Origin: Eretmocerus hayati
Taxonomy: Eukaryota > Arthropoda > Insecta > Hymenoptera > Aphelinidae
Assembly (NCBI GenBank): GCA_029851415.1
Contig: CM056744.1
Coordinates: 87,576,907-87,640,906, forward strand
Length of the DNA stretch: 64,000 bases
Reading direction: 5' to 3'
Position numbers and translations under genes: made by a program. Of the stretch, positions 24,721 to 50,248 are shown one piece after another. Below the pieces are notes generated by a model. It saw only the letters and a program-made list of their open reading frames with translations, made no database searches and was not told the origin of the DNA. How positions within the stretch are numbered: position 1 is the stretch's first letter; every line of letters begins with the position of its first letter.

Positions 24721-24879
24721 TATGGGTTTCTACTATTCCTGGCAGGAATTTGGAGTCAATTTGATGAAATTTGAGCCCGTAGTTTTGGGACTACGGTTTT
24801 GGCGGAATTTAGCAGACGAATTCCGGCCGGTATTCGCCATCCTCTTAAGATACCAAATGGTGACCAGCCAACAGCACAC

Positions 24880-28827: not shown

Positions 28828-29941
28828 CAGTACCCACCAAAAATAATGGAACATCGATTATCGCACTATAACATCGACTGCTCGAAAACTATTGGTCGTA
28901 CGGCAGTTTTGAAAGAAGCATTTTTAAGATCGGAAAAAATGCTAACTATTCATGTACTTCAAAAAATTGTTCATGTATTCTTCATGTCCAGAATTCACTG
29001 TCAAAAAGTGAAATTTTTCAAGTCACGTCAATCGCCTGTAATTTTCACTGGCATGGACGGATCTAAAAAAACTCAACGGGATCTTGTAGAGCTTTCTAAG
29101 ACCTTCAATTTCCTCTCCCTAAAAATTCTCTACGATGATGTTAAGCCAAACAATCGCTCTCAGACGACAACGATGTAATATGCGTGCTACCTGTATGGTT
29201 CCAAGGGCGTTCCGCCTCATTTTGATTCGACCTCGTTTGTGGACATGAAATATGACTTTGAAAAAATTTCAAAGGACACATTATCGTCGTAGAATTGTCT
29301 GAACTCTCAGAAAATGTGGTTGAAATCGCTCTGAAATCCGCTCCTGGAGAGCTACGTTCGTTTTTCTTCATATGATCGTGATTTTTCACTCAGAACAGTG
29401 TTTGAATCGAACTTAGCTATTCAGGAGCGCATTTTCGGGCTGTTTCATCTACATTTCACGAAATTTCAGACAATTTTACGTCGATAATGTGTCCTTTGAA
29501 ATTTTTTCAAAGTCATATTTCATGTTCACAAACGAGGTCGAATCAAAACAAGGCGGAACGCCCTTGGAACCATACAGGTAGCACGCATATTTCATAGTTG
29601 TCGTCCGAGAGCGATTGTTTGGCTTAAAATCACCGTGGAGAATTTTCCAAAAACGAAAATTGAAGTTCTTGGAAAGCCCTTTAAGATCCAGTTGAGTTTT
29701 TTCAGATCCGTCCATGCCCGTGATAATTACAGGCGATTGACGCGACTTGAAAAATTTCATTTTTTGACAGTGAATACTAGACATGGAAAATACATGAAAA
29801 AAATTTTTGAGGTACAGAAAAAGTTAGCATTTTTTCCGCACTTCAAAATCCTTCTTCCGAAATCACCATACGACCAATAGTTTTCGTGCAGTCTATGTTT
29901 TAATGCGATTATCGATGTTCCATTATTTTTGGTGGGTACTG
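28828..29941. mobile_element. 1.1-kb near-perfect fold-back element with Tc1-like ends
   Basis: The ends CAGTACCCACCAAAAATAAT (left) and, in reverse, CAGTACCCACCAAAAATAAT (right) resemble Tc1 termini. TA flanks both sides (28826-28827, 29942-29943). The arms remain alignable for about 475 bp each (to about 29304 on the left and from about 29466 on the right), leaving a loop of roughly 160 bp. Arm landmarks are GTACGGCAGTTTTGAAAGAA/GTATGGTGATTTCGGAAGAA and AAAGGACACATTATCG. The 110-codon frame at 28846-29178 and its mirror at 29784-29476 are the same arm read twice, not transposase. A transcript through the element would fold into a very long hairpin. Confidence 0.9.
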
Positions 29942-29943
29942 TA

Positions 29944-31831
29944 CAGTTTCAACTATTTGTAACTTGACAGAGTACAAACAATGCTTCGATAGGTCACAGA
30001 ATATGCAATCTCCAATATTATACAAATCTCCATACCTGACATTGAGGTCGACACATTTGTCGATGAAATGTCGCAAGATTGAATTATCATTTTTCGATTC
30101 ACCTCTCCTGAGTGGTTGCCTACATCCACAAAATGTAGACTATGTATCAAGAATAGTCAGAGAAATCACGAACCTGATCGGAGGGATGTGAATAATTTGG
30201 AGGTATCGAAGATGACTGCCTGTAATTAGGACCATGTAACTGACAACTCCACATATGAGACATTTATGAATTTTTGGGTATTGAGTTGAATAAGAGATGC
30301 ATCTAACCACAGATCTCACCAATTTGTGTCTCCTCCTATATGAGCGAGGGGATATCGAGGAGAGACGCCTGGATTTGCTCACAAAAAGGACAAGATATTG
30401 GATCACAAGACTGATTTCGATTGACAGAAGGTTGGGAAAACAAGAGACTATCTCCATTTTCATCATTCTCATAATTCATTATCAGGCCAAAATAGGGAGA
30501 CAAGAGGAGTCTCGGAAACTAACACTATTTCATTCAACAATTCATGAAATCTCAGCACGTTTATGGACTCTGAAGTGAACGTGCTCTAGAATCTACGAAC
30601 AACTCATATTTCTCATCTCTAGTACAAGTGTATATGAAAATATCATCACTTGGCACAGGTAACCCTCAACGAGATTCAGTGCCAAATCTGTGGCCACTTC
30701 AGTTACATTTGTTTCTTATCATACGTTTTTTAATTATAATCGAGTATTATGGCGAGGAATTGAGGTTATTCAATGTGTAGATTAGGATAAACCTCAGTAT
30801 ATCGAGAAAGGGAGTTCTCAGAAATGGTAGAGGTTTACAAGATCAAACATGCGTCAATGTTGCTGGAACTCTGGTTGCAGAAATTTGGTTCTGATTCCAA
30901 AAAAACTTCAAAATCGCGTATTCCAGAGATAGATGATCTTTGATTCTACAGATGGATATCACGTAGGACCTCCAATATGTACAAATTGCCTGCCAATGTT
31001 TTGAGACCTATTTATAATGGTGCATCATGAAAAAAGGCACAAATTTCCTCGAGGATTTCCAGATACATTTATTGAAAGTGAGATATCGGTGAAGTGAGCC
31101 TCATGAGAGGAAGGCCCACATTTGAAACCTCCCAAGAGGTTGCTGAAGCTCTATCTTTACCGACCTTGGTTTTCAACACAGAAAAATATTTTGCTCATCG
31201 AATATCCAATTGTTTGGAAATACTCGTCTGTAGACGTCTCCGCATGGGCCAGATCTACCCTCTCTTTTTTTACCAATTTCAGAATACCAATCTCAATTTT
31301 CGGCCCCCAACGTGGAAATTCGCATAGCTCCGATGCAAAGTCAATCAGGGCTAAATGAAAAACACGTGTCACCTCATTTAAGCTCTAGAATCATATACTT
31401 CATTGCGGAGGGAATCTAATTTCTTGACCTTACTTCATTGGACGATCTTAACTGGAATATTCCTTCTGTGTATGATAAGGGGCAGAGAAGTTCATTCCAA
31501 GGCACCAAAGTGGCAACAGGGATGAATACTGACTCGTCTCTTTCATGTTTGGCAGTCGCGAGCCCGAGATAAACGTATATGGTTTGACGCCATACAGTCA
31601 TGTGTCAGTCACTAGAACCAGCTCACACGCGGGTCCCTAGGTCGATAAAAGTAGAGCTTCCCAACATCCTCTCGGTCACACGGATATATTCCCTGCCCAG
31701 AATCCTATAAGTGCATGAGAGATGGATGATAAGAACAAACAGAAAAATCCTTCAAAATGTTAATCTTGTGCACAGTATTCGGAAAAAGTCCGGTGAAAAT
31801 GTTTAATATCAGAATATGGAAGATCGATATA
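29944..31831. other. No recognisable gene
   Basis: AT-rich sequence with short unrecognised frames only (for example 30140-30472 minus, 31094-31372 both strands). No bounded repeat seen. Confidence 0.5.
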
Positions 31832-31885
31832 CTCACGAGGAGAGGTTCAACCTTGCGGAACTATGGAACTCTGGGAATCATCTTG

Positions 31886-32066
31886 TTTTGGTGCAAAATG
31901 AAGATCTTCTAGGGTTTGATCCCATGGACCTTCTACTCATAGGTCCATTTTGGAGAATTGTGTATATCGATATGGTAACAATGCTAACCTCCATAGTTGT
32001 ATCTCGGGATAGGAGGCCCATGGGATCAAACCGTTGGAGATACCTTCATTTCTCATCAAAACAACC
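31886..32066. mobile_element. 180-bp inverted-repeat insert, related to family F
   Basis: The left arm GTTTTGGTGCAAAATGAAGA and the reverse of the right arm GTTTTGATGAGAAATGAAGG lead into a shared GGTTTGATCCCATGG-CC block. The corresponding position in the right arm of element H (around 50186-50190) has no such insert. The core (CCCATGGGCCTCCTATCC...GATAC) resembles the inner part of the 27051-27382 arms. No clear target duplication. Confidence 0.55.
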
Positions 32067-32095
32067 CTAGTAAAAATAAGTGCCTCGTGATCATA

Positions 32096-33989
32096 CAGGA
32101 GTCCCTTGTTATCCGCGGTTGCCCGATTTGCGACCATCCCTTGCTATCCGCGGGCCGAGTGTTGTTATCCGCGGGCCCATGCCCGTGATTGATATAGAAT
32201 AAATCCATTTCTGTGCAATTTCACTCGTGACGAGTGATGCGCGACCTTTCAGAATACCATCCGCCCCTCATGTGTTACGTTTGGATGATACTTTCTTACC
32301 TGAAAAGGCTTGAAACATGGATTGGCGATACATATTCTTTAGTCAGTCAAAGTTTTGAAGTATAGAAGACTGTCGAATTCGTCAAAATTGGTTATGCGCA
32401 GGTTTACACCATCATTTCTGCAGTAATTTTATATATTATGCTCTGGCATTTTTGATCAACCGTACGTTTTAATATTTTGACAAAGTTCTCGATATTTGAA
32501 TCATTCTCTACATGTGAATCTGATGTTGACATCCTTCGAGCCATTTTCATCAATATTCAGTCTGCGTGCAATGTTGACACACATTGTTTGCTATTCTTGA
32601 CCTTTATTCCTTTATATGCTGATGAGCCCATCGGTGCACTGGGACGATAATCCAGGATGCAGCTCATCTATATGTGTGCGCGGAAATCGGCGATCAGGAA
32701 CTCAGCAGCTTCTCGCGGATGTATTTTGATGATTATTGATCGGCTTGAGCGATCATTGGGAATCGTGGGAAGGGTGAAATGGTGTGCCCGACGCACATTT
32801 AGATTTTTGAATATGAAAGGCTACGATATAACGGATGCGGACGCTCGTACAACATAAATTAAATGCACACGCACACACACAGTAGTTGATATCAGATCAA
32901 TCGATCGGGTACATCGAAGGTCAATGGGCGCCGCGCGGGGCGCGCGAGCGCTCGCGGGCCAAAAAGGCGAAAAAAATGACGTTGCGGAATTATGAACTCG
33001 CCATGGACTGGTTAAGGACTAACTTATTTTAGCTTGCAGCCCTATTTATAGGCTGACTTTGGCGGGCAGGTCGTGAAATTGCAAAACTGACGTTTTACCG
33101 ATCCTACGAACGTAGATCGGTACAAATCCGGTTTTCCCTAAAAAACAAAATGCCAATAAAAATCGCGATAAAAGTGAAAACACCATTCATCCGAAAGTAA
33201 ATCGGGTAAAGGGCCGTTCCTACATTATTATGGCTACGATTGTTGATCGGCCAAATCGCCGCTCCTACAAGCTCATAAATCCTGTAGAAACGGCGATTCC
33301 ACCGTTTCTGCCGAGTTCGTGTACTTTTGTTTACCCGCCGCCGTCGAATAGTAGTTAACATTATTACTAACATCTGTTACTTAAGATTATCACGCTGGCC
33401 CGGGTCGGAGTTGTGTGAATACCATGTATGTTCGGCGAATTGCTTGCGCGGCAAATGAAAATGAAGAAACGCGTTTCTCAATTTTGAAACTTTTTTTGAA
33501 TCCTCGTTTTCATTTGCTAGAAAAGATATGGCTCCATCTGAACGGAACAATCCAGCCCCAACGTTGTGCGAGCTTCAGATTTGGCGATGGTTCGTGATCC
33601 AATCATGATTCGGAGTCTGAGCTTCAAGCATTTTCTCGATATGGGTGTGAAGATTTGCGAGGAACTCCACAGAGATATTTTGAGACGAGCGAAGCAGTCG
33701 GAGATGACAGATTTTTTCGAGAAATAGATTTACTTTCGAATGAATTTTACGAAATTTCGTCATTTTTATCTATTGTACATCATCCTCATGTACTATTTGA
33801 CTCGTCATTTTGTGACAACAATGTTGAATGAATAAAAACTATGCATGCATAGCAATTTTTCTCGTGATTTGCACAGATTGTCGAACGTAACCCCCTATTT
33901 CCCATAAGACCAAGGTCTTATTATCCGCGGTTTTGTTATACGCGGTACTCCTTCCAAGCGTGACCCCCGCGGATAACGAGGGACTCCTG
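32096..33989. mobile_element. Tigger/pogo-like DNA transposon, decayed (1.9 kb)
   Basis: The left end CAGGAGTCCCTTGTTATCCG and the reverse of the right end CAGGAGTCCCTCGTTATCCG both continue CGG. TA flanks both sides (32094-32095 and 33990-33991). TTATCCGCGG recurs three times in the left end, as expected for Tigger-like subterminal repeats. The mirror-image right arm of element H (about 50150-50165) reads GATCATATATGAACATG in reverse with no insert, so an empty site is present in the same window. Only a transposase C-terminus can be recognised (33598-33727). Confidence 0.85.
33598..33727 (+). pseudogene. Tigger-like transposase C-terminal remnant
   Basis: The frame reads SLSFKHFLDMGVKICEELHR, then RRAKQSEMTDFFEK and a TAG stop at 33727. 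A short tail of the type (K)QS.(I/M)TDFF.K just before the stop is characteristic of pogo/Tigger and jerky-type transposases. The upstream DDE and CENP-B domains cannot be traced between 32200 and 33590, so this is a remnant. It lies just inside the right end of the 32096-33989 element, as expected for the C-terminus of a plus-strand gene. Confidence 0.55.
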
Positions 33990-34161
33990 TATATGAACAT
34001 GTTCCCAGCCGAATTGTGGTCACCTATGACCATGTATGACTTCAGAAAATATTATGTCTCCATGGTTAGTCATAGGTACACAAAGCCAACTCGTACATTG
34101 GCCGCAGGGTATTTTGATCAAGTGGTAGTACATGACATTTTCAATATCGGATGGAGGCCTA

Positions 34162-35195
34162 CACTGTAAAAAATTGGTTGACTTTCCACCAAAATCGTGA
34201 ACCAGTGGTTCGTTGTCAAAATCAACCAGCTGGTTGGAATTCAACCACTGGTTGGAATTCAACCACTGGTTGACTTTGTCCCCACAGCGAATATATAAGG
34301 ATGAATGCGGCGCCCACGATATTGGTCGATGGTGGTCTCCGGTTGACACTTTTGATTCGGAAAAACAAGTTTCGTCATTTTTTTTCATAAACAAAGAGGG
34401 ATAAACATTAGCCCCGGTCGCGTATGGACGACAAAGCGGGTTGCCTGTCCTACAGGAGTCGAATACACGTCGTATAAAGCTGGAGGGATGGATAGATGGA
34501 CGGATGGGGTCGGAGGATAGATGGGATGGATGGATGGATGGATGGATAGAACGGACCGGAATGGGGCAAAATGGAACGGAATGGGGCAAAATGAAACGGA
34601 GTCAAATTGGGTGGAGGGGAACGGAACTGGCTGGGGTGGGGCAAAATGGAACGGGGTCAAATTGGGTAGAGGGGAACGTAACTGGCCGGTATGGGGCAAA
34701 ATGGAACGGGGTTGAATTGGGTGGAGGGGAACGGAACGGAATGGAATTGAATTGTATGGATAGGAGAGATCACCCCATCAATACCACCCATGCCATCCGT
34801 TCAGCCATCCATCCACCCGATCCAGCCATCTATCCCATCGATGCCATGCATGCATTCATCCCATCCGTTCATCCATCCATCTACCCCATCAAGCCATCAC
34901 TGTAAAAAATTTCTACCAGTGGTTGCAGTTTTGACCTCAACCACTAATTGACTAACAATCGAAGCACTGGTTGGCTTTTTCCCACAACGAATATATAAGG
35001 ATGAATGCGGCGCCCCTGAGATTCGTCGTGGTCCCCGGAGAACTTTTTTTGGGTCGGAAAAACAAGTTTCATCATGTTTTTTCACCAACAAACAGGAATA
35101 AATCTCAGCGCCGGTCGCGCGAGCATTTTCGGAAAAAAATTCAGGTTAAGCATCGTTTTTGCGATTCATTATCCGGATAGGTGACCGCTTGACTG
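34162..35195 (+). repeat. Left terminal inverted repeat, with two stacked CACTG ends
   Basis: Outer end at 34162, then palindromic AACCAGTGGTT, AACCAGCTGGTTGG and CAACCACTGGTTG motifs (34195-34275), a TATATAAGG box (34293-34300), GGATGG and GGGGCAAAATGGAACGG minisatellites (34480-34760), and CCATCC repeats to 34897. A second end, CACTGTAAAAAATTTCTACC, starts at 34898 and is followed by its own CACTGGTTGG motif, TATATAAGG box (34993-35000) and a diverged version of the same downstream domain. Homology to the right arm stops after GACTG at 35195. Confidence 0.85.
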
Positions 35196-38100
35196 AAGCT
35201 GCCTAGTCCTACTCGCGTATGTCCAATTTTCAATACGAAAGCCCACAGGATCTCCGTGTTATTGGGTTCTGAAAGCCACCCTAGTCCCGTAGTTGACCTC
35301 AATCAACTCACAAGAACGCGAAAATTCGTTGTACCTCTAATTAAGTCACACTCGGATGTTTTCGAAGAAATTCTCCTAAATCGTTCCGGCTTATTCTGAG
35401 TCATTGATGTTGCTGGACAGAAATGTCTCAATTTGAACGCCCAAAAATTGTCAAACTATCAAAGTTGAATTTTTCTATGTAATCTTATGAATCACAATTC
35501 TTCCCCAAAACTCTTCCACTGTGGTTTCCAGATTACTTTGTAGTCACGAGAATCTTTGTTCTGAGAACTTTTTCATGTGTCGGGGAGTGGTTTTTCCACC
35601 ATTCGCCAACAAATATAAGAAAGTATCGATGCGTCATAGGGATGGCTGGCTTCAATATTGGTAGATCAGCGAGATAAAGCATAGTGTTACCACAAACAAA
35701 ATCCCATAAAATCACTTCAGTCTTATAAGAGCAGACTCCTTGAAATAAGAGCGAAAATCACTGAATAGCTCTTTAAATATGACACGTCTATCATCTCTAG
35801 AAATGAGAGATTTCCTCCCAAAATGAGAGAGTGATCCTCTCAAAATGAGAAGACAGCGTTATTCAAGAGAACAGGCTCACTTTCAAGTGTTTGATACCAT
35901 GATTCGAGGGATGGAGATCGCGGATGCTTGCAAATCTTAGGGCTCGAATTTTTTATTTCAAAGTGCTCGACGTCTCAATGGATGCTTGAAGATGCAGGTG
36001 CAGTTAATGAACAGCACACGGAAAGATATATAGCGTTGAGTATTTCGAATGTTAGCCAACAAATCTTCAGTTCGGTTCGTTGAACTGCGTTAGAATCCAA
36101 GGTAGCCCAAGAAACATCGACCTCTAGCGTAATTTAGATAATTTAGATGTGCTCAACGATACTCGGATAGCTCTGAGATCTAGACTCCCCCCCCCCCTCC
36201 CCCCACAGTTTCTCATTTCGATATTACAAACGGGTCAAACTTGCTCGCGGCGCCCGAACTCCACATCACCATACTTTGAATCTCTTCTTTTTTATTTTAT
36301 CTCTACTTTTTTACGACTGTCTTCTAATCAACACTGAACTCACTCATCATTCTTTGAAATTGAGAAAGAGTACCGGCAACTTACAAAATTGAGTTCCAGA
36401 TACATTTTTTCTCACAAATCCGAAAGCTGAAGAAAGTCTGAACAAGCCTTATAATTAGAGCCTTCGGTACGGATTGGTTGAACAGGAACAAGAATGGGCC
36501 TTCAATCGTTGACGTGTTGGATGAATTAGAGACATGATCTGAAATATGTCACTATCGCCTCTAGTCTCATTTTCACCTGACCTCTAACCAAACCTCATTT
36601 CTAATCTGAGAATCAATCTCTCTCATGCTCAGCTCATCTCTTCGATGAAGAAATAGCCTGTGAACTCTAGATTTTCATCAACGAGAAAGGATTGCTCAAA
36701 TGATGAAAATCTTCATGAGTATCTTTGTATAAACCATAGTATCTATATTCAACGTAAACTCTCTCAATGAGCAAAATATCCCCGCAATTTCTCTAGGTTA
36801 TTGATGAATACTCTTAAACTTGCTTTGTTACTCGATTTGTCAATCGCTCTCAGATACGATTTAACTGGAATTCGAGTCACAACAGAGTGAAGTTAGATTT
36901 TTCATATTCATTCTACATTTTTGCATCCAAGTTTAACTCATAACTCAAAGATCGATGTCGTCCAACAGAAAGACGTAAGTGGTGAGGTGACCTATCACTG
37001 TAAATCATGGTATTGACGGACAAGTATAACTTGAATCGTGCGCTGTGTTCCAAAATCTTTAGGGTTCTTGAAAAACCTTTCAATTTTTGAATGTCGAACG
37101 AGAGAAAAGACGTCACCTTGCTAGAATCACGATGTTTGGGAATTAACACAGTAACCCTGGTACAAAATAATCAAGTATCAGCATTCTTTAGCTGAGAAAC
37201 ACTTGAGATAAGTTTCTATAACTGAAAGAGTTCAATGAACAAATATATTAGGAAAAGGTTATGTATGTTGTCATTACAGATTTCGTCTCTCATTCTGAGA
37301 AGCAAAGACTATTTTTGAATAAGGGGGAGACAATTCCCCTCATACCATCTTCGAGCCATCAAAATAAGACATTTTTTGTGAATGTCACTTTATTTTCTTC
37401 GCCTTGAATCTTTCATTACAGACTATTCATCTAACGAACGGATTAATGGCAGTATTAAATAATCACAATATTTAATCTCCGCCATGTTTCAAGTTGTGCA
37501 TGTACATCTCTGAATAGATAATAATAAATACAAAAGGATCAGTATTCAGTTATTCATCACTATTGAGTTCTCATTAGCTAGGACGATGTACATACTACAA
37601 TATAAATTGTAGATGAGCAATCTTTTGAGTCACGACTCCGGTTACAAGTACTGGAGAATAAAAAGAAACGTTATAACATTCAACGAAATAATCTTCCATC
37701 TACCAATCAAATAAATTCTGAATTAGGTCATCGATAATACTGTCCTGACCAGTTTCGAGCAGCTACATGTGCCAGCTCACAAAATTGTTCGTTTTCCGAA
37801 ACTAAGGTCGAATCCACCTTGTAATTGAAATATTGAAATCGACACATTCCTCACATGAAACCATAAATAATGTATAGTAACATTCAACACAAATCGGTGA
37901 AGACTAAATTCCGAGCTTACGAGTCGATTCAGCTACAGCTCGATACTCTCTCTTGTTTGGCGATAACAAAGAATACACTTAATGATAACGATCACAGAAA
38001 AATTGGTCAGATATTCAAACGACTTAAAAACTAACACGTAACAGTTTTTCAAAAGAAGAGAAAAATAATTCTGAAAGTTCCGTCTTGAAAGTCATTAGTC

Positions 38101-38563
38101 GGAACCTCTCTTACAAATAATATCATGTTCATCGTCTTAACTAGTCGATGATGTAAGAATTTCTTTCCATATAACTCCACGAAGAACTGTCTAACAGACA
38201 TTGTATCATGACTAGTGAAGACGTATATGTTCTAAGATAACTTAATTCATCATTTCAATACATCAGTCATGTGAATATACCAATTACTCTAATAATCTTT
38301 CGCGTTGGAATCGTTTTGGCAACATAATTGTCTTGTTGTGATGGATGAAAAACAATGTCGATGGATAAATCTAATGCTCATCATCTCTGTCTATCAGTAA
38401 TCTAAGAAAGATTGGAAAACACTTTTGTCGGATGAGTTTGGTGTAAACGCACAATACTCGGCTAGTTTAGTCGCTTCTTGAGGCCATTGTAAGAGTAATA
38501 GTCTTGATATTACATTAAAAATATTCGGGAAGAATTCTCAAGCGAGATAATCATCTCCCGTAA
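35196..38563. other. Element interior without recognised genes
   Basis: AT-rich sequence downstream (3') of the SAMD3-like gene. A C-tract occurs at about 36187-36203. GAGAGATTTCCTCCCAAAATG-like short repeats sit at 35800-35860. No open frame over 80 codons resembles a protein family. It may include 3' untranslated sequence of the gene ending at 38564. Confidence 0.45.
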
Positions 38564-41500
38564 TTACTTAGCTGAAACTTCATTTGAGGAAAACTCTAAT
38601 TTGAAGACACTCGAGAATGAACTCAAATTTGTTACGAGGGTCCTTACATGAGAGTTGACTGCAAGTACCTGTCGACTTCGTGAGGTGTCTTTCTTGGTTC
38701 CCGGAGTCTTGGGTACTATCCGCAATAACAACCTGCAACGGATGGATTATTTTTAATAGGGTATATGCCTATTGAATTTTCAAATCGAATTCGAAGATAC
38801 GATTCGATAGAAGTATATGTAAAGATCAAATATTACATCTGCGTGAGTTCCAGAGTTTTTTCTATTTCTCGCTTGTAGTCGTACCCAAAGATGTAGTATG
38901 ATAAGAAAGTCATCAAGATTCCTTCAAGGAAGTTATTGCACTTGATCAAATGTGTTTGCTCGATGACAACGTAGTAGCATACTCCACTGTAAATGTTAGT
39001 ACCTCCAATCACCAATATTGGATGGTCGGTAAGAGCTGCATTTCGGACATCGTTTGGCTGAGATTCTGGCTGTTAATCATATTTTCAATTTAATTACTAG
39101 TATTCCTCATCTAATGCTGTATTTGATAGGGAAACATTGGGTGATGTGAGGGAAATAACTTGATTCAGTTTGGAGCTGACAAGATTCCATAGTGAGACAC
39201 GAGCAGTGTAATTGATAGTCATAAACATCATTGAATTTAATGTAATATCTAATCAATATGAAAACTCATTCGAAGTATAGCCCTTGGATTTCAGGATCAA
39301 TCAATGAAACATGATAACGACTACAGTTTGCCCTTGGCCCTTTCAAAATCTATGATTGCATCGTCTGAATAAGAATAAGCAAGTCCAAACATATATTTCC
39401 ACGATCCAACACATTTAACCGTTCAGTTTTTAATTCTAGGCTGTCACAAAATTGTGTTGGGAAATTAAAAGATTGGCATCGGTCGATTTGATGAGGTTAA
39501 TCTCTCCAAGACCTGATACGATTCTCCACTGTCTTACCTTAATAACTTTGTAGAGATGAGAAGAATTTTCTTTGAAATAGAGGAGTAGCAGGGGGATGAC
39601 AACTGCATACAGCGGCTCTTGACTCTTTTCAAATTCTACAGCATCATCAGCTTCATCGGATATTTGTTGAAAGTCTGAGCACCGTTTAGTATGATACAAA
39701 TGACTCTTGAAATACAGTCTCATCTCCTTGAAAAGTGTCCGCATTGATTCCATCCATACTTCATCGACATTTTTACCAAGCAAAATTGAAGAATGTTGCT
39801 TGAGACATCGACAGTCATCTAGAAATGGCCAATCTTTGAAAATTTCGTGAAGATTCCTCTCCTCTACCGTTAGAAGTTTTCTCTGTGTAGGATACGTCTC
39901 CTTCATTAGCAGTAGAATTCTTTCGTCATTGCGTGGGTTTGGGTTGGTATAAAGTTTAGCTAGCTCCTTCCTTTTACAGTCTTGCGAGTCGGGTGTTTCT
40001 TCCCCGGACAAATCTGGTGCGTAAGCTACGCAACCATATTCATCATGCTCACGATTCTGAGCGAATACTTTACGACGACGTTCCAACTCATCTGCGTCGT
40101 TATCTTTTATACGAAGTCGTTTTTTCGAGCTTCCACTCAGTTTACTCTTCTTAACCTGGACAGCGTTGTGAACTGCCGTGACTAGCAGATTGAATCCATC
40201 ATCCCACTTAGTGCCTGCATACAGCATGGCCATTGATTGAGGGTATTTATCACATACCATTCTACAAAGTAGTCTTTCTGTTGAACGTCTTGTATCGTCG
40301 AGATCTTCGATCAAGTAGTCTCTTATGGCATAAGCAATCGCTTTTCTACGCTCTGCAGTCAAGCACGTTCCTTTTTCGCAAAAATTGATAATATGGTCTG
40401 GTATTCTAATCATTACTCTGCTAAAATCCACATCTGACTCCAGCAAATCTGAAATCAGAAAATTTATTTCTTCTGCTAAGACATGGTATCCGAGAACTGT
40501 TCAACTGATGGTTTAATCTGCAGAAGGGCAGCTAAAAAGTTACGCGAGAGACAATATTGTCGTGCGAAGTTTTATAAAATGCACGATTTGAGGATGGAAA
40601 GTAATTCAAGAACAATGTATGCGAACTCAACTGTTTCAATGCATTCAGATAAAGAAGAGTTCATGAGCGTGTGAAGCACTGGTTGACATGAGACTAATGT
40701 CCTTATTCGGGAATCAATTACATACCGGTCAAATGAAATCAATAATGAGCCATAGAATTAACGTGGTTGAGTTGGAAAATGATTCTGCACCCCTGTGAGT
40801 GTGTCGCATGATGAGGGAACTTTTTTTATTTTACTAACCTTCACGAAAGGCAGCGGCAGGTTGCGGTAGCGCTCGAGCCGTGGCGTGAGAAGGCCTTCCT
40901 TCGGCTTCATCCACGTTCATCGTTTCATTCAAGTCATTTCTCTCCACAATCAGTACGAGCTGCATAGGATCACCATTGCTTTCTGCTGCGAATTCGACCA
41001 CATCGTCGTCTACAGGAGTCTTGCCATCTGCCATAAGAAGCTAGAGAAACGGGAGGAAAGTTATTTTCAGAATAAGATCGATGCCGAAGAATAATGAGAT
41101 CGCTTGCAGCAAGGCGGGCTTATGGACTTTTACGATTCAAGAACACTCCAACTGAATAATATTCGAACGAGGAGTAAGGAGTCTGTGTATATGATTCTAT
41201 TCGCCCTATTCGACAATGGTGGCACTATTCACGTACTCCTCAGAAGGAAGGCTTGGATGAATCAATGAATTTCACAATTTAATTCAACGTTGTACACATT
41301 GAATTTGTATCGCAAAGTTTCACTTGATGCCGATAACGACGGGGAATAGAAATACTTGGTCGACCATTTCACTTCATGATCATGTCAATTAATAAGTTTA
41401 TGAATTGTAAACCTCATAAACAAAAATCAACTCCGAGTGAAAAATACGAGTGCAAGTATTACGCCATGCAATCAGAATCGATTATGATAAGAGAATTGAT

Positions 41501-41794
41501 CTCTATGAATGTTGAAGTTTTGCAAACCTTGCTAAGGGCGTCAAAGTTGAAAGAGTTTCAAAATGATATCGAAAAAAATGAAGTTACTCACTCCCAAAGT
41601 GATGAGTCGGGTTATGAACAATCGACATTCATACACTCAAGTCTTTGATCTTGGATTGCTACCAACATATTTACCTGGCAATTGCAATTGACATCTAGCT
41701 TTTTCTTGGCTCCAGTGAGCACTTGCTCAGCTGTGTCACCTTTGACCATGACAGACTTGGTGTTATTCTCTGTTTGAACTTTAAAGAAAGGCAT
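38564..41794 (-). CDS. CIDE-N/PB1-like plus SAMD3-like element protein (5 coding exons, 544 aa)
   Basis: Proposed coding exons: 41794-41675, 41040-40839, 40448-39538, 39069-38837, 38732-38564. Every junction is GT-AG and the phases (0, 1, 0, 2) keep one frame to the stop. Exons 1-2 join as ...LDVNCNCQ/LLMADGKTPVDDD, a ubiquitin-fold domain of CIDE-N or PB1 type (the L..DGT.VDDD block). Exon 3 has LTAERRKAIAYAIRD, then GCVAYAPDLSGEETPDSQ, LLMKETYPTQRKLLTVEERN and WPFLDD. Exon 4 gives HPILVIGGTN, YYVVIEQ and FLSYYIFGYDY. These blocks match animal proteins annotated as SAM domain-containing protein 3-like, which accompany EnSpm transposases. No SAM domain is visible. A TTTTTTTCCAG acceptor at 41819 implies a further 5' exon. 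Molecular role unknown; a DNA-binding or assembly partner of the transposase is inference. The last exon is the least certain. Confidence 0.75.
41376..41648 (+). CDS. Possible small ORF inside an intron, opposite strand
   Basis: A 90-codon plus-strand frame in the first coding intron of the SAMD3-like gene. Its composition is hydrophilic (for example LLRASKLKEFQNDIEKNEVT) and less biased to Phe/Ile than chance frames in AT-rich DNA usually are. A second plus-strand frame of 63 codons (40483-40674, with a basic RRAAKKLRERQYCRAKF stretch) lies in the next intron. They could be two exons of a small antisense gene of the element, but I find no convincing splice pair, and chance remains likely. 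Confidence 0.2.
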   Translation: MIMSINKFMNCKPHKQKSTPSEKYECKYYAMQSESIMIRELISMNVEVLQTLLRASKLKEFQNDIEKNEVTHSQSDESGYEQSTFIHSSL

Positions 41795-42104
41795 GATGTC
41801 ATCGGTGAACAGATAACACTGGAAAAAAAGTAGAGGCATTTCAAAATTTGCAAAGTGTTGCGTTTTCCAACAGCGTAATCAAATCTAGCTAATGAGATAG
41901 TTTGAAAAATACAAACTTTTGGAGTTTATGTCTGATGAATCATGTGAGAGGCCATTTATTGCTAAAGAAGTCTCAAAAAAATGTTCCTGATACAAAATCA
42001 ATTTCAGAATGAATTTAGTGTTCATAATTATGTTTTAGTAGCATCACGACTATGTTGCAATAACTATAATCTACCGGTCTTCAACATCTTGACTGATTAT
42101 ATAT

Positions 42105-44801
42105 TCATGTGTGCTGAGAGACAAAACCATACTTGGGTTTCACAAGTAACTTATTCTTCCAACGATATTCATGCATAGGCTTATAGCTCATGATTTGAGA
42201 GAGAGCTATGCATTCATACTTCAGGCGGGGCCCTAGCTCATATGCTCTCACTGATGGGATGAAATCTGACTCAAGCACTTCCATCAAGAAGAAAACGTCC
42301 GATTCATTGATGGACATGATCAAAACGATTTTTCCCAACTCTACCATGTATTGATAATTAGCTTGGCGAATAGCCAAAATTTGACCTTTTCTGTACTCGG
42401 TGCCCTTGAATACTATGCTACCGCAGCACTCGTAAATATCTGGAGAACTAATTGCTGAAGTGATGGCTTCAACAACAGAGTCGTTGTAAAGAGAGAGATT
42501 GAGTGTATTCATTTCACCCAAGTCCAACAAGGGACGAGCATCACCCCCCAGCCTCACATAAGCCTGATAGAGCTCATGTTTTTCTGCTGCTGTCTTTATA
42601 GGATTCTTGAAATTGAGCATGATCCTCATCAATCTCTTGAAATATTTGTGTTTCTGTTCAAACCCCATGGTCCAAACTTTGATGAGCGGACCAAACTGGA
42701 TGATGAGCCAGACATAATGTGCCAAATAATGATGCTTAGGTCGCAATTTGACTGAGGGGAACTGAGATTGCCTCATCTCCAAATAAAGGTCAATGCAGAA
42801 ATTGAGATAAGGCAGATGAGATTCGTGAATCGAAGGTGCACATATTATTTCCACAATTTCTGTAAGCAACAAAGTCAGTTGCCACACCTCATCATCGACA
42901 TCCTTAACTTTGTCTAGGATAAGTACTGGAAAAAGACGAATAAAATTCCAGACCTGACATGCGCCACCATTTATACGGTCCTTGTCAGCGGAAACCTCAC
43001 AAGGCTTGTCTTGAAGATCTTTTGAGGAGTAAGGAAAGTCCTTGATACGTTGGTTCAGTAATTCAAAATCAAACCATTCATTTTTCACAAAATAGTCAAT
43101 GTAAAGCTTCAAATCATAAGATCCGAAGCCTTCAAAGACGTCGTGACCTAAGCAAGGAGGTAAAAGAGGATCAGCTACGTGAACAACATCAAGTTCATTA
43201 AATTTTGAATCGAATTTGACTCCTAGATGACTATGTTTATTGCCTTTGTCTCGTAATGCTTTTTTGTAACCTTCAACTGTTCGCAGCTCGTAATTTCTTG
43301 TGGCACCACCTTTTTTTTCAAATTCTTCTCGAGTGATAAGGCAGAATCTGCAAAAATACTTGGCACAGCTGAAATTCTCCACATGACCTGCGAGACCGTG
43401 GCTTCCAAGATTATCACCGCATATGTGACATACAGCACCTTTGATTATTTTATCTCCAACTCTGACACCCTTTTCAAGCTCCTTCAAATCTTGAACAATT
43501 CGGCCGTAGACAATATCATGATCGAAATCTTTTGCTTTGCATAAAGCAACAAGTTTGACGCTGCTTGGATGACTTTGAACGTGATCGGGAAGTCTACCTA
43601 TCCTCATATAAACCGCTAACAACTTGTGTTTCTTCTTCGCTGGGCCAATAGGAACCACTATTTCAAGTTCGTCCTCGTAGAGTACAATTTCCTCTGCATC
43701 TGGATTATCTTTGAAGTACTGTCTACTCTTGTGCAATTCTCCGTCGTGAGAATCTTGGAGAAGTCCTTCAACTCTAGCGGGCCGAGGCTGGTTCAATTCG
43801 GCTCCAATAGATTTGTCAGTATCTACAAAATTTAGCGTTTTAGGGATTGGAATATAAGCGAAAAATGTTTCCTTATCCTCGTCAATAACCAAGTATTCGG
43901 GTGGCACATGGTCAAATTCTGTCTTGTAAAATTTCTGACGCAGATAGGAACTATGCAACTTCTTGTAGCCTTCATTCACAGGATCTTTCTTGAACGTTTC
44001 GATAAAAATACTATTCAATCTGTCTGGATCGATATTTTCCGTGGCCAAATTCTGGAATAACCTGTTTTTGATCAGTTCTTGAGCTTCATTATGATGACTC
44101 GTCGATTCACGAGCAATGTAATCCACAGTTTTTGCAGCCACCATACACTCCGATTCTAACTTCAAATGAAATTCGGCTAAACGTTTTATATATAGATCAG
44201 TTGCTTCCTTATCACTCAAGCCAGCATTCTGGTCTTCATCTCGTCCAGACCCATCCTGATGTGATCCATGATCATGCTGTTGGTGATCTTGGTCCATACG
44301 ATTTTCATCGGACCGATGAGGGGCAGTCAATATTGAATCTCTCGTCCCGTTTCGAGGGTTCGGCACATTTTCAGACACATGTTGGATATTGGAACGACTT
44401 TGGTGAGATCGTGTTAAATGACTGCTGAAAGAATTCATCAGTTTGTACTTTTTCTTGCATCCCCTCATTGGACACTCGATTTCTTGATTACTCTTCAGAT
44501 GTACTCTTAGATGTTTCATAAGCAACGTCAACCTATCGAATTCTTTCTGGCAAGTGGTGATGGTGCAAACAAATTTTCCAAACTCGTTCGCTACGTGTAT
44601 GGCATTGGAATCTTCTTCTTTGAAACATAATTTATGTACTTTTTCAAGGTGTACTTTGAGATGCTTTCGTGTTCTGAAAACACTGCAACATTTATTGTGC
44701 CCGCAATGGATAAAGTTTGTAACGCTACGGTGAAAGAGATGGTGTCGTAAATGAGTTTCAAGATCACTCGACTTGAAATCACACGCTTTGCAATAGAACA
44801 T
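42105..44801 (-). CDS. EnSpm/CACTA-type transposase with N-terminal C2H2 zinc fingers (898 aa)
   Basis: Single uninterrupted exon. The frame is open from 44855, but I prefer the ATG at 44801 (MFYCKACDF) because relatives start directly at the first zinc finger. Four C2H2-type fingers occupy residues 1-135 (CKAC...H, CGHNKC..HLKVHLEKVH, CTITTC..HLRVH, CPMRGC..HLTRSH). An acidic, His/Gln-rich linker follows (about 140-200). The catalytic part starts near 370: VLYEDELEIVVPIGPAKKKH, KLLAVYMRIGRLPD, CHICGDNLGSHGLAGH, YFCRFC, PPCLGHDVFEGFGSYDLKLY and KPKHHYLAHY-like RPKHHYLAHYVWLI, then FGPLIKVWTMGFEQKHKYFK. These are the conserved blocks of animal EnSpm transposases; the acidic residues of YEDE, GDN and HDVFE are candidate catalytic residues. 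It should bind element ends and cut DNA in the nucleus. The lack of any stop or frameshift suggests recent selection. Confidence 0.9.
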   Translation of the reverse strand: MFYCKACDFKSSDLETHLRHHLFHRSVTNFIHCGHNKCCSVFRTRKHLKVHLEKVHKLCFKEEDSNAIHVANEFGKFVCTITTCQKEFDRLTLLMKHLRVHLKSNQEIECPMRGCKKKYKLMNSFSSHLTRSHQSRSNIQHVSENVPNPRNGTRDSILTAPHRSDENRMDQDHQQHDHGSHQDGSGRDEDQNAGLSDKEATDLYIKRLAEFHLKLESECMVAAKTVDYIARESTSHHNEAQELIKNRLFQNLATENIDPDRLNSIFIETFKKDPVNEGYKKLHSSYLRQKFYKTEFDHVPPEYLVIDEDKETFFAYIPIPKTLNFVDTDKSIGAELNQPRPARVEGLLQDSHDGELHKSRQYFKDNPDAEEIVLYEDELEIVVPIGPAKKKHKLLAVYMRIGRLPDHVQSHPSSVKLVALCKAKDFDHDIVYGRIVQDLKELEKGVRVGDKIIKGAVCHICGDNLGSHGLAGHVENFSCAKYFCRFCLITREEFEKKGGATRNYELRTVEGYKKALRDKGNKHSHLGVKFDSKFNELDVVHVADPLLPPCLGHDVFEGFGSYDLKLYIDYFVKNEWFDFELLNQRIKDFPYSSKDLQDKPCEVSADKDRINGGACQVWNFIRLFPVLILDKVKDVDDEVWQLTLLLTEIVEIICAPSIHESHLPYLNFCIDLYLEMRQSQFPSVKLRPKHHYLAHYVWLIIQFGPLIKVWTMGFEQKHKYFKRLMRIMLNFKNPIKTAAEKHELYQAYVRLGGDARPLLDLGEMNTLNLSLYNDSVVEAITSAISSPDIYECCGSIVFKGTEYRKGQILAIRQANYQYMVELGKIVLIMSINESDVFFLMEVLESDFIPSVRAYELGPRLKYECIALSQIMSYKPMHEYRWKNKLLVKPKYGFVSQHT

Positions 44802-44877
44802 TTTCGCAGATATATTGATATCTGAATGATAGCGCAAGGTTTCAGAAATGATCACAGCGTTCCGGCATCTGTTGACA

Positions 44878-46221
44878 AGAGGAGAATGCAGTGATTCATC
44901 ATTCTAAAAGTATGGTGCTGAAATAGTCCATCGGTACAATAAATGCAATACAAACCAAGTGATTTCAGAGAGACATTGATTCTAAGACGGTATGGATAAA
45001 ATAATTAAAAAAAATGTTCAGATTTTTCCTCTCATTGCTTGCTTTCCCAATATGACTTAGGCTGAAAAAATGTCTGTTTTTAGAAGTTGTCGAACCTTAG
45101 AGTTTGCATTCCCTGACACCCGTTAGTTCCCTGTTTTTTTAATGATGTAACAAAATTTCCACACAGTCAACCCTTGGAAATTTGGCAGATGTCCTGATTC
45201 GCATATGCTGGCGCTGGCCAATTTATCAGCATCTTGTGTAAATGATATAAATCACTACATCGCCAAAATTCACCATCTGTCTCTCAACATCGTGTAGATT
45301 ACTGACTAAAAAGTGTTTCGAATGAAGAAAACTAAACAACTGAATTAAAAAAGAAAAACTAGACATTGCAGGGGCAAAGATTAGCCAATGAAATTCATTA
45401 AAAATTCAACACGAGTGTGAATATAGATCTGTTCTATCGTATCTAATTCATCACCCTTCATTCAAGTGGTTTAAATGTATAATTTTACCTCAAGGTCAGA
45501 TGCAAGAGCAGTTGGATTTAGAGGTGAAGATGATGCTCTGTAGATCCTTGATGATGTGTTTGTCCAGCCTTGTCTCAGCGTTATTGATACACACCCTAAG
45601 ATGGTGATCAGAGATTCAATTAGGAAGTGTATAGCTAAGAAAATTTCCGATATTCTAGAAATAGCTCATCTATATGGCCATTGAACAAATATTCATTCAG
45701 GACCAGAGTGTAAACAAAATCGAATATCATCATCATTGTGAGGCGCTGGCTGAAAAACACTGGTAGATGTGTCGGCTCCAGTTGATATTATTAATAGGTA
45801 TAGATGCCGTAAACAAAGGGAAAAACAACATGGCGGAGATGACTGCTCTTTTATATTAGATTATACATGCTCAAGATGTCACCATTTCATTGCATAGTTA
45901 CGGATCCTTTTTTTTTTTTTTTTTTCTTAATAAATATACGGATCTGAAGATAGCATGAACACAAAGCTCTCAACTATAACGCAGCAAGTACGTGGCGAGA
46001 GCCCCAGTTAGAACTAGAATAACAAATGCAAAAATAATGCCTATATATGAGAGGATCGCGAGTAGTCCAGCGTTAATTAAAATGACAAGTCTATAGAAAT
46101 TCCCGGTTGAGCGCTCCATCCAAATTCGATTCATCTAGCTTGCCAGGAGATGGAAAAAGAATTATGCTCGGAATTAGGCAAGTGTGGAGCCAATCACACG
46201 AATGAGTTGAAGGTACTTACC
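44878..46221 (-). other. Probable 5' intron and leader region of the transposase gene
   Basis: On the minus strand a perfect donor CAG/GTAAGT lies at about 46221 and a plausible acceptor CTCTTGTCAACAG at about 44878, just upstream of the transposase start. The interval is AT-rich, has a T-tract (45909-45926) and no open frame of note. Splicing of these sites is inferred, not shown. An upstream ATG (ATGCCGGAAC...) would begin right after the acceptor and stop after eight codons. Confidence 0.4.
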
Positions 46222-46680
46222 TGATAGACGTGTCAATCAGTGCCCGAAATGCAAGAGTTCAATCTCTCGTACTCGCGAACTCGCGTCTCGTGGTCTCAAG
46301 CGATTTTGCCTTGTTGCCACCGATCGTTGCTGCGCCGCCGACCGATCCACGATGACACTCCGCTGTGCTCCGCCGGGCTCTCGTTTGGAGCTGATTCCGA
46401 GTGTTGTTCGAAGCACAATACGTGGCTTGGCACGATCTTGACTTAAGCTGCTCGGTGCCTCACTGACGGGATTAACAACAACGTCGTCCACAAGAAGATC
46501 CCGCTTCCGACCCGGCGTGACGGCATCTCTGGGTTGCGGCACAAGCGCGAGCAAAGATGTTAGGTTAGGTTTACCGTAATACGGCAGCTTCAGCCTCTGC
46601 AGCTCGGACGGCACTGATCAGCACTGATGATCCTCATGCGCGAGCGCGCGAGCTGCCGTTTCGCCGCGGAGACGAAGATT
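46222..46680 (-). promoter_or_regulatory. GC-rich candidate promoter and 5' exon of the element genes
   Basis: The stretch is CpG-rich (for example GCGCGAGCGCGCGAGCTGCC in the plus strand near 46638-46660) inside AT-rich DNA and ends, on the minus strand, at a consensus donor CAG/GTAAGT. A 125-codon minus frame (46614-46237) begins inside and stops just before the donor, so any translation there would be a separate upstream ORF. It shows no domain. I favour a transcription start region with a mostly untranslated exon that could splice to the transposase exon or to the acceptor at 41819. Confidence 0.4.
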
Positions 46681-46975
46681 TGTTTGTGTTTACGTGCGCT
46701 GTTGCTGTAAGCTTACTGCATTCCAATCAAGATTCGATCAACCACGAATTTCTAATTCCTTCGCTTGTTAATGTCATACTTATTCTGTATCTCCCTGAAA
46801 ACTACTTTTTGCACAGTTTTTAACGCAATTAAAAATTTCTCGAGCATGTATCGATTTTTCTATTCAGGGCGTGCTTGAATTCAACTATTCACCTGTATTT
46901 TATACCCAAAGCATCCATTCATGGCGGGGCATAAGTTTTCATCACAAATAAATCTCTATTTCATTGATATGTGTA

Positions 46976-47640
46976 CGGGTAATTCCACGAGATTACGATA
47001 GACAAAATGGGTTGGGTATCAGATTCCTTTTTCAATTAATTTTTTCGATTCTATAGGTCAAAAAATTAGCATCTGGCACCATAAATAAAATTGAAAATTT
47101 TTTTTCGGACGCTGGCGCATGAATCAAGATTCGGTTTTAAAATTTTATTTGCAAAATTTTGGTAAATTTTTTTTAATAAAATCGTTATGACTCTGAAACG
47201 AGTCTAAGTAGAGGAACGGGGTTCAGTGCATCTGAAAGGTGAGTAAAGAATCTATCGAAAACCACCTTGAAATTTCGGTTTCCATGTCACCTCGATTATA
47301 TATGGGTAATTCCGCGAAAATCATCTTCGACTCTTTCTCTCACAAAGCTATTATTTGGTATGCTCAAAAGTACATTCTTTGATGTAAGAAGTTGTGCTCT
47401 CTTCGAAAAAAATACTTTCATTCTGCATTTCTGGGTTCTACGGTCTTGTTTGAGCGTTTTTTGCAGATAAAATTTAAAAAACCGAATCTTGATCTATGCG
47501 CCAGCGTCCGAAGAAAATTTTTCAATTTTATTTATGGTGGCAGATGTTCATTTTTTGACCTATAGAATCGAAAAAATTGATTGAAAAAGGAATCTGATAC
47601 CCAACCCATTTTGTCCATCGTTTTCTCGTGGAATTACTCG
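46976..47640. mobile_element. 665-bp TA-flanked MITE inside the EnSpm-type element
   Basis: The left arm starts CGGGTAATTCCACGAGATTA and the right in reverse CGAGTAATTCCACGAGAAAA. They then share ACAAAATGGGTTGGGTATCA and GATTCCTTTTTCAAT for more than 180 bp, including TTCGATTCTATAGGTC and CGGACGCTGGCGCAT. TA is on both sides (46974-46975, 47641-47642). A third copy of the end motif, TATATGGGTAATTCCGCGA, lies in the middle at about 47296. No coding capacity. Confidence 0.85.
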
Positions 47641-47642
47641 TA

Positions 47643-48595
47643 TGTCGCTCCTTGATCACGACCATAGAGATATGACAGATTCTGTAATACCTTGATCACG
47701 ACTGGTGACAGCGATAAATTTCTCCCAACCCATCTGGAAGTGTCGCAGATGGATTCATAGTCAACATCTGGTTTCACTTTCAATTGCTTTCTTCGGATTC
47801 CCCGTGTCGAACGTGGGGCTCCACCGGGATTGAGCTAATTGAGATAATCTAAACTAGATTTCAGTGATGATGAGGAACCTACAAGTAAGACAAGACATTG
47901 GGCTATAATATTTCTCAATTAAAAACACGATCAATAGCGATGATGCAGAAAAATGCTGGATTTACATTTCCTATTATGGTCTACATAACTCATTTCAATC
48001 CCCGAGTTATAGTGATCCGACCCCGATGCCTGACTTTCTCCGCCAACTTGGTCGATTTCAAGATGGGATGACTTAATAAATTGAAACAGCTGTGTAGCCG
48101 AAATATACGAGGTAACGGTCGTCGCAGTAAATTTGCGATGTAATCGCAGATAAAATAGAAACGTACGAAAATTTGTTCGAAAGTCCGGCGGATGTCATGC
48201 ATGATGGTCTCCAGGAGCCAAAATTGTTTTACAGCCACAAATATGAGAGGAAGAGGAGGAGAATAAGAAATTATAATTAAGAGGCAAAATTTTCCAAGTA
48301 CTCTTTTTTCTTATGCCCACAAAGTATAATAGTTCATACATTTAGATACGGGGGCGGGAATGTTCGTATTCGTGGACTGAATAATATTCCCCGGGGTCTG
48401 AGCCAAATGCGGAGTCGGGGTCGGCCTTTGAAATGTAATATCGCATGGATTTACTCGATACTCTGATAGTAGCATCTACGCAGATGCGAGAGCTTGGCAG
48501 ACGGAGAAACGTCGATTTGACCCAATAATGTCCCTGGGAATCCACTGAATGGGTTCCGCATAACATCCATAGGTAATAGTAGGATGGCAGAATTT
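47643..48595. other. Element interior without recognised genes
   Basis: No protein-like frame recognised. A GC-richer stretch at 48345-48560 contains no domain. The sequence leads into the stacked repeat units of the right end. Confidence 0.4.
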
Positions 48596-48861
48596 TCTAC
48601 GCAACCTAAGCGTGGCAACATCAGCAGAGCGGTCCCCAATCCAGATAACGAATCGTGAAAACGATGTTTAACCTGAATTTTTTCTCCGAAAATGCTCGCG
48701 CGACCGACGCTGAGGTTTATTCTTGTTTGTTGGTGTAAAAACGTGATAAAACTTGTAAAAAGTCAGCCGGGGACCACCATTGTCCAATCTTATGGGCCCC
48801 GTGTAATACCCATATCAGAAGAAAGGAGAATTTTTTACGCGAGCTGTAAGCGTGGTAGCCC
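48596..48861. repeat. Additional partial copy of the end domain, right side only
   Basis: CTACGCAACCTAAGCGTGGCAAC at 48599 and ACGCGAGCTGTAAGCGTGGTAGC at 48837 start two tandem units about 240 bp apart. Both go on GGTC(C/A)CCAATCC(A/G)GATAA(C/T)GAATCG, AAAACGATG(T/C)TTAACCTGAATTTTTT and AAATGCTCGCGCGACCG(A/G)CGCTGAG. The second unit belongs to the terminal repeat; the first is a more diverged copy that lacks a CACTG end. The right side therefore carries three stacked end domains and the left only two. Confidence 0.75.
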
Positions 48862-49959
48862 CAGTCAAGCGGTCACCAATCCGGATAATGAATCGCAAAA
48901 ACGATGCTTAACCTGAATTTTTTTCCGAAAATGCTCGCGCGACCGGCGCTGAGATTTATTCCTGTTTGTTGGTGAAAAACATGATGAAACTTGTTTTTCC
49001 GACCCAAAAAAAGTTCTCCGGGGACCACGACGAATCTCAGGGGCGCCGCATTCATCCTTATATATTCGTTGTGGGAAAAAGCCAACCAGTGCTTCGATTG
49101 TTAGTCAATTAGTGGTTGAGGGAAAAACTGCAACCACTGGTAGAAATTTTTTACAGTGATGGCTTGATGGGGTAGATGGATGGATGAACGGATGGGATGA
49201 ATGCATGCATGGCATCGATGGGATAGATGGCTGGATCGGGTGGATGGATGGCTGAACGGATGGCATGGGTGGTATTGATGGGGTGATCTCTCCTATCCAT
49301 ACAATTCAATTCCATTCCGTTCCGTTCCCCTCCACCCAATTCAACCCCGTTCCATTTTGCCCCATACCGGCCAGTTACGTTCCCCTCTACCCAATTTGAC
49401 CCCGTTCCATTTTGCCCCACCCGTTCCATTTTGCCCCACCCCAGCCAGTTCCGTTCCCCTCCACCCAATTTGACTCCGTTTCATTTTGCCCCATTCCGTT
49501 CCATTTTGCCCCATTCCGGTCCGTTCTATCCATCCATCCATCCATCCATCCCATCTATCCTCCGACCCCATCCGTCCATCTATCCATCCCTCCAGCTTTA
49601 TACGACGTGTATTCGACTCCTGTAGGACAGGCAACCCGCTTTGTCGTCCATACGCGACCGGGGCTAATGTTTATCCCTCTTTGTTTGTGAAAAAAAATGA
49701 CGAAACTTGTTTTTCCGAATCAAAAGTGTCAACCGGAGACCACCATCGACCAATATCGTGGGCGCCGCATTCATCCTTATATATTCGCTGTGGGGACAAA
49801 GTCAACCAGTGGTTGGATAGGTAGTCAACCACTGGTTTGTGCCAAAAATAAACCAGCTGGTTGATTTTAAACCAGCTGGTTGACTTTTGGCATAAACCAG
49901 TGGTTGAGGGAAAAACTGCAACCACTGGTTGCAGTTTTTCCCACAAATTTTTTACAGTG
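48862..49959 (-). repeat. Right terminal inverted repeat, with two stacked CACTG ends
   Basis: Reverse complement of 34162-35195. From the inside out: inner end finishing TTTTTTACAGTG at 49158, minisatellite blocks 49160-49600, TATA boxes read on the minus strand at about 49059-49067 and 49777-49785, and outer palindromic motifs (CAACCACTGGTTGCAG, AACCAGCTGGTTG) up to 49959. Between the outer TATA box and the inner end the two arms differ only by about one base, one GGAT unit and a 19-bp duplication (GTGGGGCAAAATGGAACGG) on this side. The outermost 130 bp are much more different. Confidence 0.85.
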
Positions 49960-50248
49960 TAGCAGTTGGAGCCCCAAGCGCGCTCGTTTCGAAGCTTCGG
50001 ATTGAGTAAGATCTCGAGTTGGCGATGAAGTGCTTCATCCCCAACATGAATTCCTAGGATCAAGTATGGAGACCAATGACGATCTATGACTCCGGCCTCA
50101 TGGTCATAGATGGTCTTGTATGACCACAGTCCGGTCGGGAACATGTTCATATATGATCATGAGGCACTTATTTTTACTAGGGAAGATGATTCCCAGCGTT
50201 TTATAAGGATCCGTGTTCCGCAAGGTTGGACCTCCCCTTGTCACTGAG

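Follow-up and report, generated by a model that had tools for sequence, protein, structure and literature searches.

Plant CACTA transposons create a 3-bp target-site duplication, classical CACTA elements carry arrays of subterminal repeats and Transib elements generate 5-bp target-site duplications. A wider CMCT clade has been delineated, in the excerpts of PMC12730594 on which this account draws, by 5'-CA..TG-3' termini, a duplication of 2-5 bp, C(2)C and H(3-4)H motifs and a RAG1/Transib-type core, and the same excerpts give a 3-bp target duplication for fungal EnSpm. From a second source, also available in excerpt (PMC1636069), come En/Spm, in which one transcription unit is spliced into several products, and SmTRC1, which shows 2-bp direct repeats in seven of its 14 copies and has multiple spliced transcripts. 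Here we describe a 15,798-bp element at 34162..49959 of a 64,000-nucleotide stretch (hereafter the window) of the tiny parasitoid wasp Eretmocerus hayati, a chalcidoid of the family Aphelinidae (C4:87576907-87640906 in the 692-Mb assembly of 17 contigs that was searched throughout), which is very probably a two-gene, EnSpm-like (CMCT-clade) cut-and-paste transposon working along the lines of the full model proposed below.

The first-pass annotation of this stretch had reported identical 14-bp inverted ends, and CACTGTAAAAAATT is indeed found exactly at 34162(+) and 49959(-); the window scan also brought up two internal exact copies that had gone unreported, at 34898(+) and 49158(-). With up to two mismatches, this terminus has 10 matches in the window, compared with a mean of 1.14 and a maximum of 5 in 100 shuffles. 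TA stands on both sides, as had been noted (34160..34161 and 49960..49961), and its duplication is backed by empty sites. A query in which 33990-34161 (172 bases, ending in TA) was joined to 49962-50179 (218 bases), with one TA kept, matches uninterrupted repeat copies across the junction, at 93-96% identity, in each of the 40 best places scored out of 644 first-look candidates; 38 of these match the full 390 bases, while the remaining two begin at base 2 and base 5. Since the joined flanks restore an uninterrupted repeat, 34162-49959 is a single insertion with a TA duplication, lying flush at TA within an older repeat. A larger element, suggested by a short inverted repeat in the flanks, was rejected by the empty-site search, that repeat being part of the older host repeat.

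The same ends are found on many short copies elsewhere in the genome. A search with the first 239 bases gave at least 41 matches (40 of 1,421 candidates were scored), the short copies studied being picked by resemblance to the left tip. Termini that face each other at a spacing of 1,191-1,462 bp are present in 26 of the 28 loci read (one of which is the window), and 25 of these 26 short copies have exact 2-bp flanking duplications (21 TA, three CA and one TG), the single copy without a duplication adjoining another terminus. The CA and TG cases imply that the duplication is real and not a mere symmetry of TA. Diverged CACTG-ended relatives yielded 12 end pairs in 26 loci, eight with matching 2-bp flanks (seven TA, one GA); of the other four, one is a spurious 37-bp pairing within an arm, one differs in its ends and two have TA on a single side. 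Other copies checked for their boundaries have the same CACTG/CAGTG ends, in line with the ends originally annotated. The short copies align with the outer part of each arm, left and right, with the middle of the element absent and the innermost ~126 bp of each arm unmatched in those examined. Divergence from their consensus is at most 1.1% for 10 of the 26 and reaches 6.3% in the farthest one. These 1.2-1.5-kb copies are deletion derivatives that share the outer ends of the element.

Two undamaged minus-strand genes had been announced inside the element. The first stands as described, an open reading frame without a stop at 42105..44801(-) that encodes a transposase of 898 amino acids. Domain and motif assignments place C2H2 fingers within residues about 1-135, a predicted RAG1-like core at residues about 200-756 and a predicted C-terminal BAH-like domain at residues 757-888, so that the protein is modelled as a RAG1/Transib-type DDE core with zinc fingers before it and a BAH-like domain after it. 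The presumed catalytic residues, assigned by motif order and not by residue superposition, are D377, D463 and E715, and C484-C487 and H691-H695 lie between the last two. Sequence matches to solved structures (all 24 of a first search, the best 60 of 98 in a second) are to zinc-finger proteins, plus two weak matches to CPEB1, RAG1 being reached by fold only. A search with the transposase found no relatives in viral contigs, and none of nine papers that mention both a BAH domain and a transposase deals with a fusion of the two, judged by titles and abstract openings. In its own genome, the transposase has 55 matches (51 of 548 candidates scored, which bounds all that follows on this search), including the window copy at 100%. 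The next closest, at C1:77.85 Mb, is a fragment of 81% identity interrupted by four stops; it lies ~14 kb from an arm of a related element that we call L064, to which it presumably belongs. The remaining matches have at most 62% identity and several are uninterrupted.

The second gene (hereafter gene 2) turned out to be larger than first drawn, the open reading frame at 39436-40413 being the main exon of a six-exon gene. Six GT-AG exons on the minus strand between 45593 and 38564 together give exactly the partial protein annotated as P0024 (QAD02_008708), and this fit replaced a four-exon splice model, from which the 502-amino-acid query used in searches derives (some residues at two junctions of that query are wrong, and the last exon is absent from it). 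The first annotated exon (45489..45593), which is 5' incomplete, is possibly a leader exon, because the relatives P0025-P0028 start at a methionine in the next one. It is followed by exon 2 (41675..41818), where a CIDE/PB1-like domain begins, exon 3 (40839..41040), exon 4, the main conserved exon (39538..40448), exon 5 (38837..39069) and exon 6 (38564..38732), which includes the stop and encodes a C-terminus similar to those of P0026, P0028 and P0030. The whole transposase sits in the first intron of annotated gene 2, the transcript of which, as annotated, begins on the upstream side of the transposase and skips it by splicing. The N-terminus is predicted to be a CIDE/PB1-like domain; a Foldseek search with the protein had no match at E 0.001, the fold match is confined to this first domain and the rest of the protein was barely covered by that search. 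No Pfam family was recognised in gene 2. A resemblance to vertebrate SAMD3-like proteins is possible, but a literature search on this point brought up nothing relevant among the 10 matches listed.

The two genes travel together. Of the 20 gene 2 loci found, 19 have the gene 2 homologue 0.6-11 kb downstream from a transposase, and transposase and gene 2 are thus a tandem pair across related loci. Identical gene spacings were observed in two pairs of related two-gene elements, 1,062 bp at C1:19383901 and C1:107413092, and 1,112 bp at C4:36502995 and C3:79137271; both pairs are probably recent duplicates of other families.

How does the element compare with the systems outlined above? With plant En/Spm it has in common CACT termini and, as a trait of classical CACTA elements in general, a subterminal repeat array (10 motifs in its tips), but it ends in CACTG instead of CACTA, duplicates 2 bp instead of 3 bp and has a partner without a recognised Pfam family. 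It shares a predicted core fold with Transib/RAG1, but its duplication is 2 bp against 5 bp in Transib, and no RAG2-like partner was recognised in it. Its termini (CACTG..CAGTG), a 2-bp duplication (in 25 of 26 short copies, eight of 12 diverged pairs and the empty sites of the window locus), C(2)C and H(3-4)H motifs between the second D and the last E, and a predicted RAG1/Transib-type core fold are each among the traits of the CMCT clade, and it is on termini, duplication length, motifs and predicted fold that we place it there. Since both CACTA ends and a 3-bp duplication are wanting, the element is EnSpm-like (CMCT-clade) and not a classical CACTA, which retains one half of the original EnSpm/CACTA label and drops the other. 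Kilobase compound arms, a BAH-like domain and a CIDE/PB1-like partner are absent from the excerpted description of the clade (PMC12730594). ESTA, an EnSpm-like element of rust fungi in the same excerpts (PMC12730594), shares a mostly-TA duplication and a RAG1-like transposase, but the present element has an insect host and CA, TG and GA duplications besides TA. SmTRC1 and other animal TRC elements are likewise animal CACTA relatives with 2-bp direct repeats, but their termini are CCC and their inverted repeats span 10-54 bp, compared with CACTG and ~1-kb arms here (PMC1636069). A multi-product transcription unit like that of En/Spm is what the annotation of our element suggests. Tetris, a foldback element of Drosophila virilis known to us in excerpt (PMC4079207), also has long inverted repeats with internal tandem repeats and a related short element with the same tips, but is apparently nonautonomous, whereas the element described here carries both genes inside. 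A literature search, as far as its best-ranked matches go, returned no published description of the element, which agrees with the initial suspicion of an undescribed family. The suggestion that it is possibly autonomous, with an architecture unusual for its group, has also held up, intactness being judged at the level of reading frames.

The arms have an architecture unusual for the group. The ~1.05-kb inverted repeats first reported are real but not simple: 34218-35203 aligns with 48854-49868 at 95.4% over 1,016 columns (97-99% in three long ungapped blocks), and each arm consists of two tandem terminal modules, that is, an outer terminus, a minisatellite and a second terminus. The outer left arm (34162..34897, +) comprises terminus, subterminal motif array, TATA-containing block and minisatellite, the outer right arm (49159..49959, -) has the inverted layout, and their outer parts match the left and right halves of the short copies, respectively. 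The inner left module (34898..35203, +) opens with an exact second CACTGTAAAAAATT and the inner right module (48854..49158, -) closes with one. Each of the four terminal modules holds one exact TATATAAGG, the only four in the window, and all of them face inward, an orientation that would suit terminal promoters. Over the outermost 95 bases of the left arm, the likeness to the right arm is only ~70%. Palindromic subterminal motifs (AACCASTGGTT/AACCAGCTGGTT) are packed in the tips, four on the left (34200..34271) and six on the right (49804..49930), giving 10 core motifs in 298 bp of tips, where simulation of 1,000 first-order Markov sequences yields 0.09 on average and 2 at most. Each inner end has the shorter core, CCASTGG/CCAGCTGG, once, and three more copies of it lie in the window outside the arms.

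This compound layout is shared with other loci. The junction between minisatellite and inner terminus, which in the window reads CATCAAGCCAT followed by CACTG, recurs at L059 on C3, where it is seen for both arms, and, slightly changed, at L064 (C1:77.83 Mb), an older copy that is 83-90% alike where aligned (one arm was read). The compound arm is therefore a heritable feature of the lineage and not an accident at the window site. Of the second genomic copy with both arms and genes that had been sought, L059 supplies both compound arms, but a deletion of ~12.6 kb has removed its interior together with the genes, and it lacks one outer tip. In L060, a third relative, the arms are simple and TA is duplicated. 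An inverted-repeat pair within the element, between right arm and genes (46974..47642; 92%, ~0.3-kb spacer), is probably an old resident, because related sequence stands at roughly this position in L064 too. Over 34421-34897, the two arms of the window copy show no difference in 477 aligned bases (19 gap columns), whereas comparison with the C3 arms gives 19-22 differences in 460-482 sites (4-5%; Fisher P ~1e-6 and 4e-7), the C3 arms differing from each other at 11 of 479. That the window arms are closer to each other than to the arms of another copy suggests homogenisation between inverted arms, a pattern that is clear in the window copy over 34421-34897 alone.

In the model that we favour, the RAG1-like transposase would cut at the outer termini and insert the element with a 2-bp stagger, mostly at TA. 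The outer ends would be those used in transposition, because it is only at the outer tips that the palindromic motifs are dense, and the zinc fingers may recognise these motifs. Inward-facing TATA boxes in the termini might drive expression, transposase and gene 2 being possibly alternative products of a single transcription unit, as in En/Spm. Gene 2 would encode an accessory protein, perhaps oligomerising through its predicted CIDE/PB1-like domain to pair or coat the ends. The arms could have arisen through tandem duplication of a terminus and be homogenised by gene conversion between inverted repeats, and the short copies would be internal deletions mobilised in trans.

Several observations count against parts of this model. 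For the proteins, the oligomerising role of gene 2 comes from the fold match of one domain, Transposase_21 and DUF4218 were not detected in the window protein at E 0.01 (among 23 aligned proteins, DUF4218 is present in three and Transposase_21 in one), and the window protein has G at residue 713, two positions ahead of the presumed E715, whereas the 21 relatives that align at this position all have R, which tempers the 'apparently intact' of the first-pass annotation while leaving the reading frames as described. For the arms, (i) the contrast within the C3 arms is weak (P 0.075), (ii) the outer module at 34257-34420 has no contrast at all (two of 164 within the window, one to four of 151-160 between window and C3) and (iii) in the inner module the right arm of the window is nearer to the C3 right arm (2/305) than to its own left arm (6/305). 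Finally, the genome search found no second copy with intact genes and the window copy itself is therefore no more than putatively mobile.

The last point, together with G713, feeds a reading that is quite possible, if somewhat short of probable, namely that the element is a relic whose frames are intact but whose transposase is inactive, the young short copies being moved by the transposase of another family. Candidates for such a donor exist, since several other genomic transposases of 47-55% identity are uninterrupted over most of their length, and there are other CACTG-ended short families, while only one near-identical copy of the window transposase was found, its own. Against a relic speak the open 898-amino-acid frame, the exact six-exon fit of gene 2, a number of departures at invariant columns (5 of 106) that falls inside the range of the relatives (0 to 11), and the outermost 340 bases, which are 98.5% (left) and 97.4% (right) like the consensus of short copies, bearing in mind that these were picked by left-end similarity. 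In any case, this reading bears on activity alone and is compatible with the anatomy of the transposon proposed above.

It is the anatomy that a nested insertion would change. A 14,261-bp transposon (34898-49158) might have landed in the centre of a short foldback copy and mimic one element, as the exact and symmetrical inner termini invite one to think, and as does the fact that the outer arms by themselves look like a short copy. We nevertheless find this improbable. The inner junction is present at two other loci, one of them just 83-90% alike, which excludes a one-off nesting at the window site, although an ancient nesting followed by joint movement remains compatible. The empty centre that nesting predicts has no genome match at up to two mismatches (searched in its single-AT version), the inner flank would be AT whereas the 33 matched duplications are TA, CA, TG or GA, each inner end has one core subterminal motif against four and six at the outer ends, and the short copies examined are without the innermost ~126 bp of each arm. 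As for a foldback element of another superfamily that acquired the two genes, it is very improbable: long arms with internal tandem repeats do recall Tetris (PMC4079207, in excerpt), but termini, 2-bp duplications, motifs and RAG1-like fold all agree with the CMCT clade (PMC12730594, in excerpt), and the gene pair is conserved at many related genomic loci, known there from the genes.

What is new about the single transposon that we favour is (i) compound, partly homogenised arms common to several loci, (ii) a regular partner gene, the splicing of which apparently bypasses the transposase, and (iii) a predicted RAG1-like core with a BAH-like tail. The PHD finger of RAG2 directs or restrains RAG1 by histone marks. 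By extension, this could be a RAG1-fold transposon that couples cutting, chromatin reading and a polymerising partner from the same transcription unit, its BAH-like domain directing or restraining insertion by histone marks and filaments of the partner on the motif arrays synapsing kilobase, self-homogenising compound ends, an idea that we regard as doubtful in its entirety. Still, RAG1 derives from a transposase of the same fold group (PMC12730594, in excerpt), and the gain of partners and chromatin readers by RAG1-fold transposases bears on the evolution of V(D)J recombination. The element also offers a defined insect two-gene system, with one candidate master copy, young short copies and exact empty sites, in which natural end variants (outer, inner and simple-armed) suit the testing of end requirements. 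Kilobase inverted arms are possible in this group, and annotation tuned to short inverted repeats may miss them. The genome of E. hayati consists of 53.58% repeats, 7.27% being DNA elements and 32.39% of the genome unclassified repeats (PMC10482854, in excerpt), a figure that does not imply any share for this family; the term EnSpm has no occurrence in the main text of the genome papers PMC10482854 and PMC13116730.

The surroundings of the element are themselves rich in repeats. The older interspersed host repeat, which has short inverted ends of its own, was traced by the joined-flank search to 31835-31884, 32065-32095, 33990-34161 and 49960-50241. In the left flank, 32096-33989, between TA and TA, is an element with the ends CAGGAGTCCC and CCGCGGATAACGAGGGACTCCTG, which we take to be Tigger/pogo-like, and ~31885-32064 is a short inverted-repeat insertion. 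Further away, a 1.1-kb imperfect palindrome (28824-29945; 84.6%) with the ends TACAGTACCCACCAAAAATAATGG, and internal CACTGTCAAAAA strings that are not its ends, is presumably a Tc1-like foldback copy. The open reading frame at 53966-54472, perhaps a piggyBac-like fragment, matches DDE_Tnp_1_7 weakly (E 0.0045, which does not reach the curated cut-off), while another, of 166 amino acids (24722-25222), looks integrase-like by eye, with no Pfam match at E 1. Four imperfect palindromes of 0.3-0.4 kb, at 16282-16617, 19145-19572, 27047-27385 and 56948-57221, are likely short foldback repeats.

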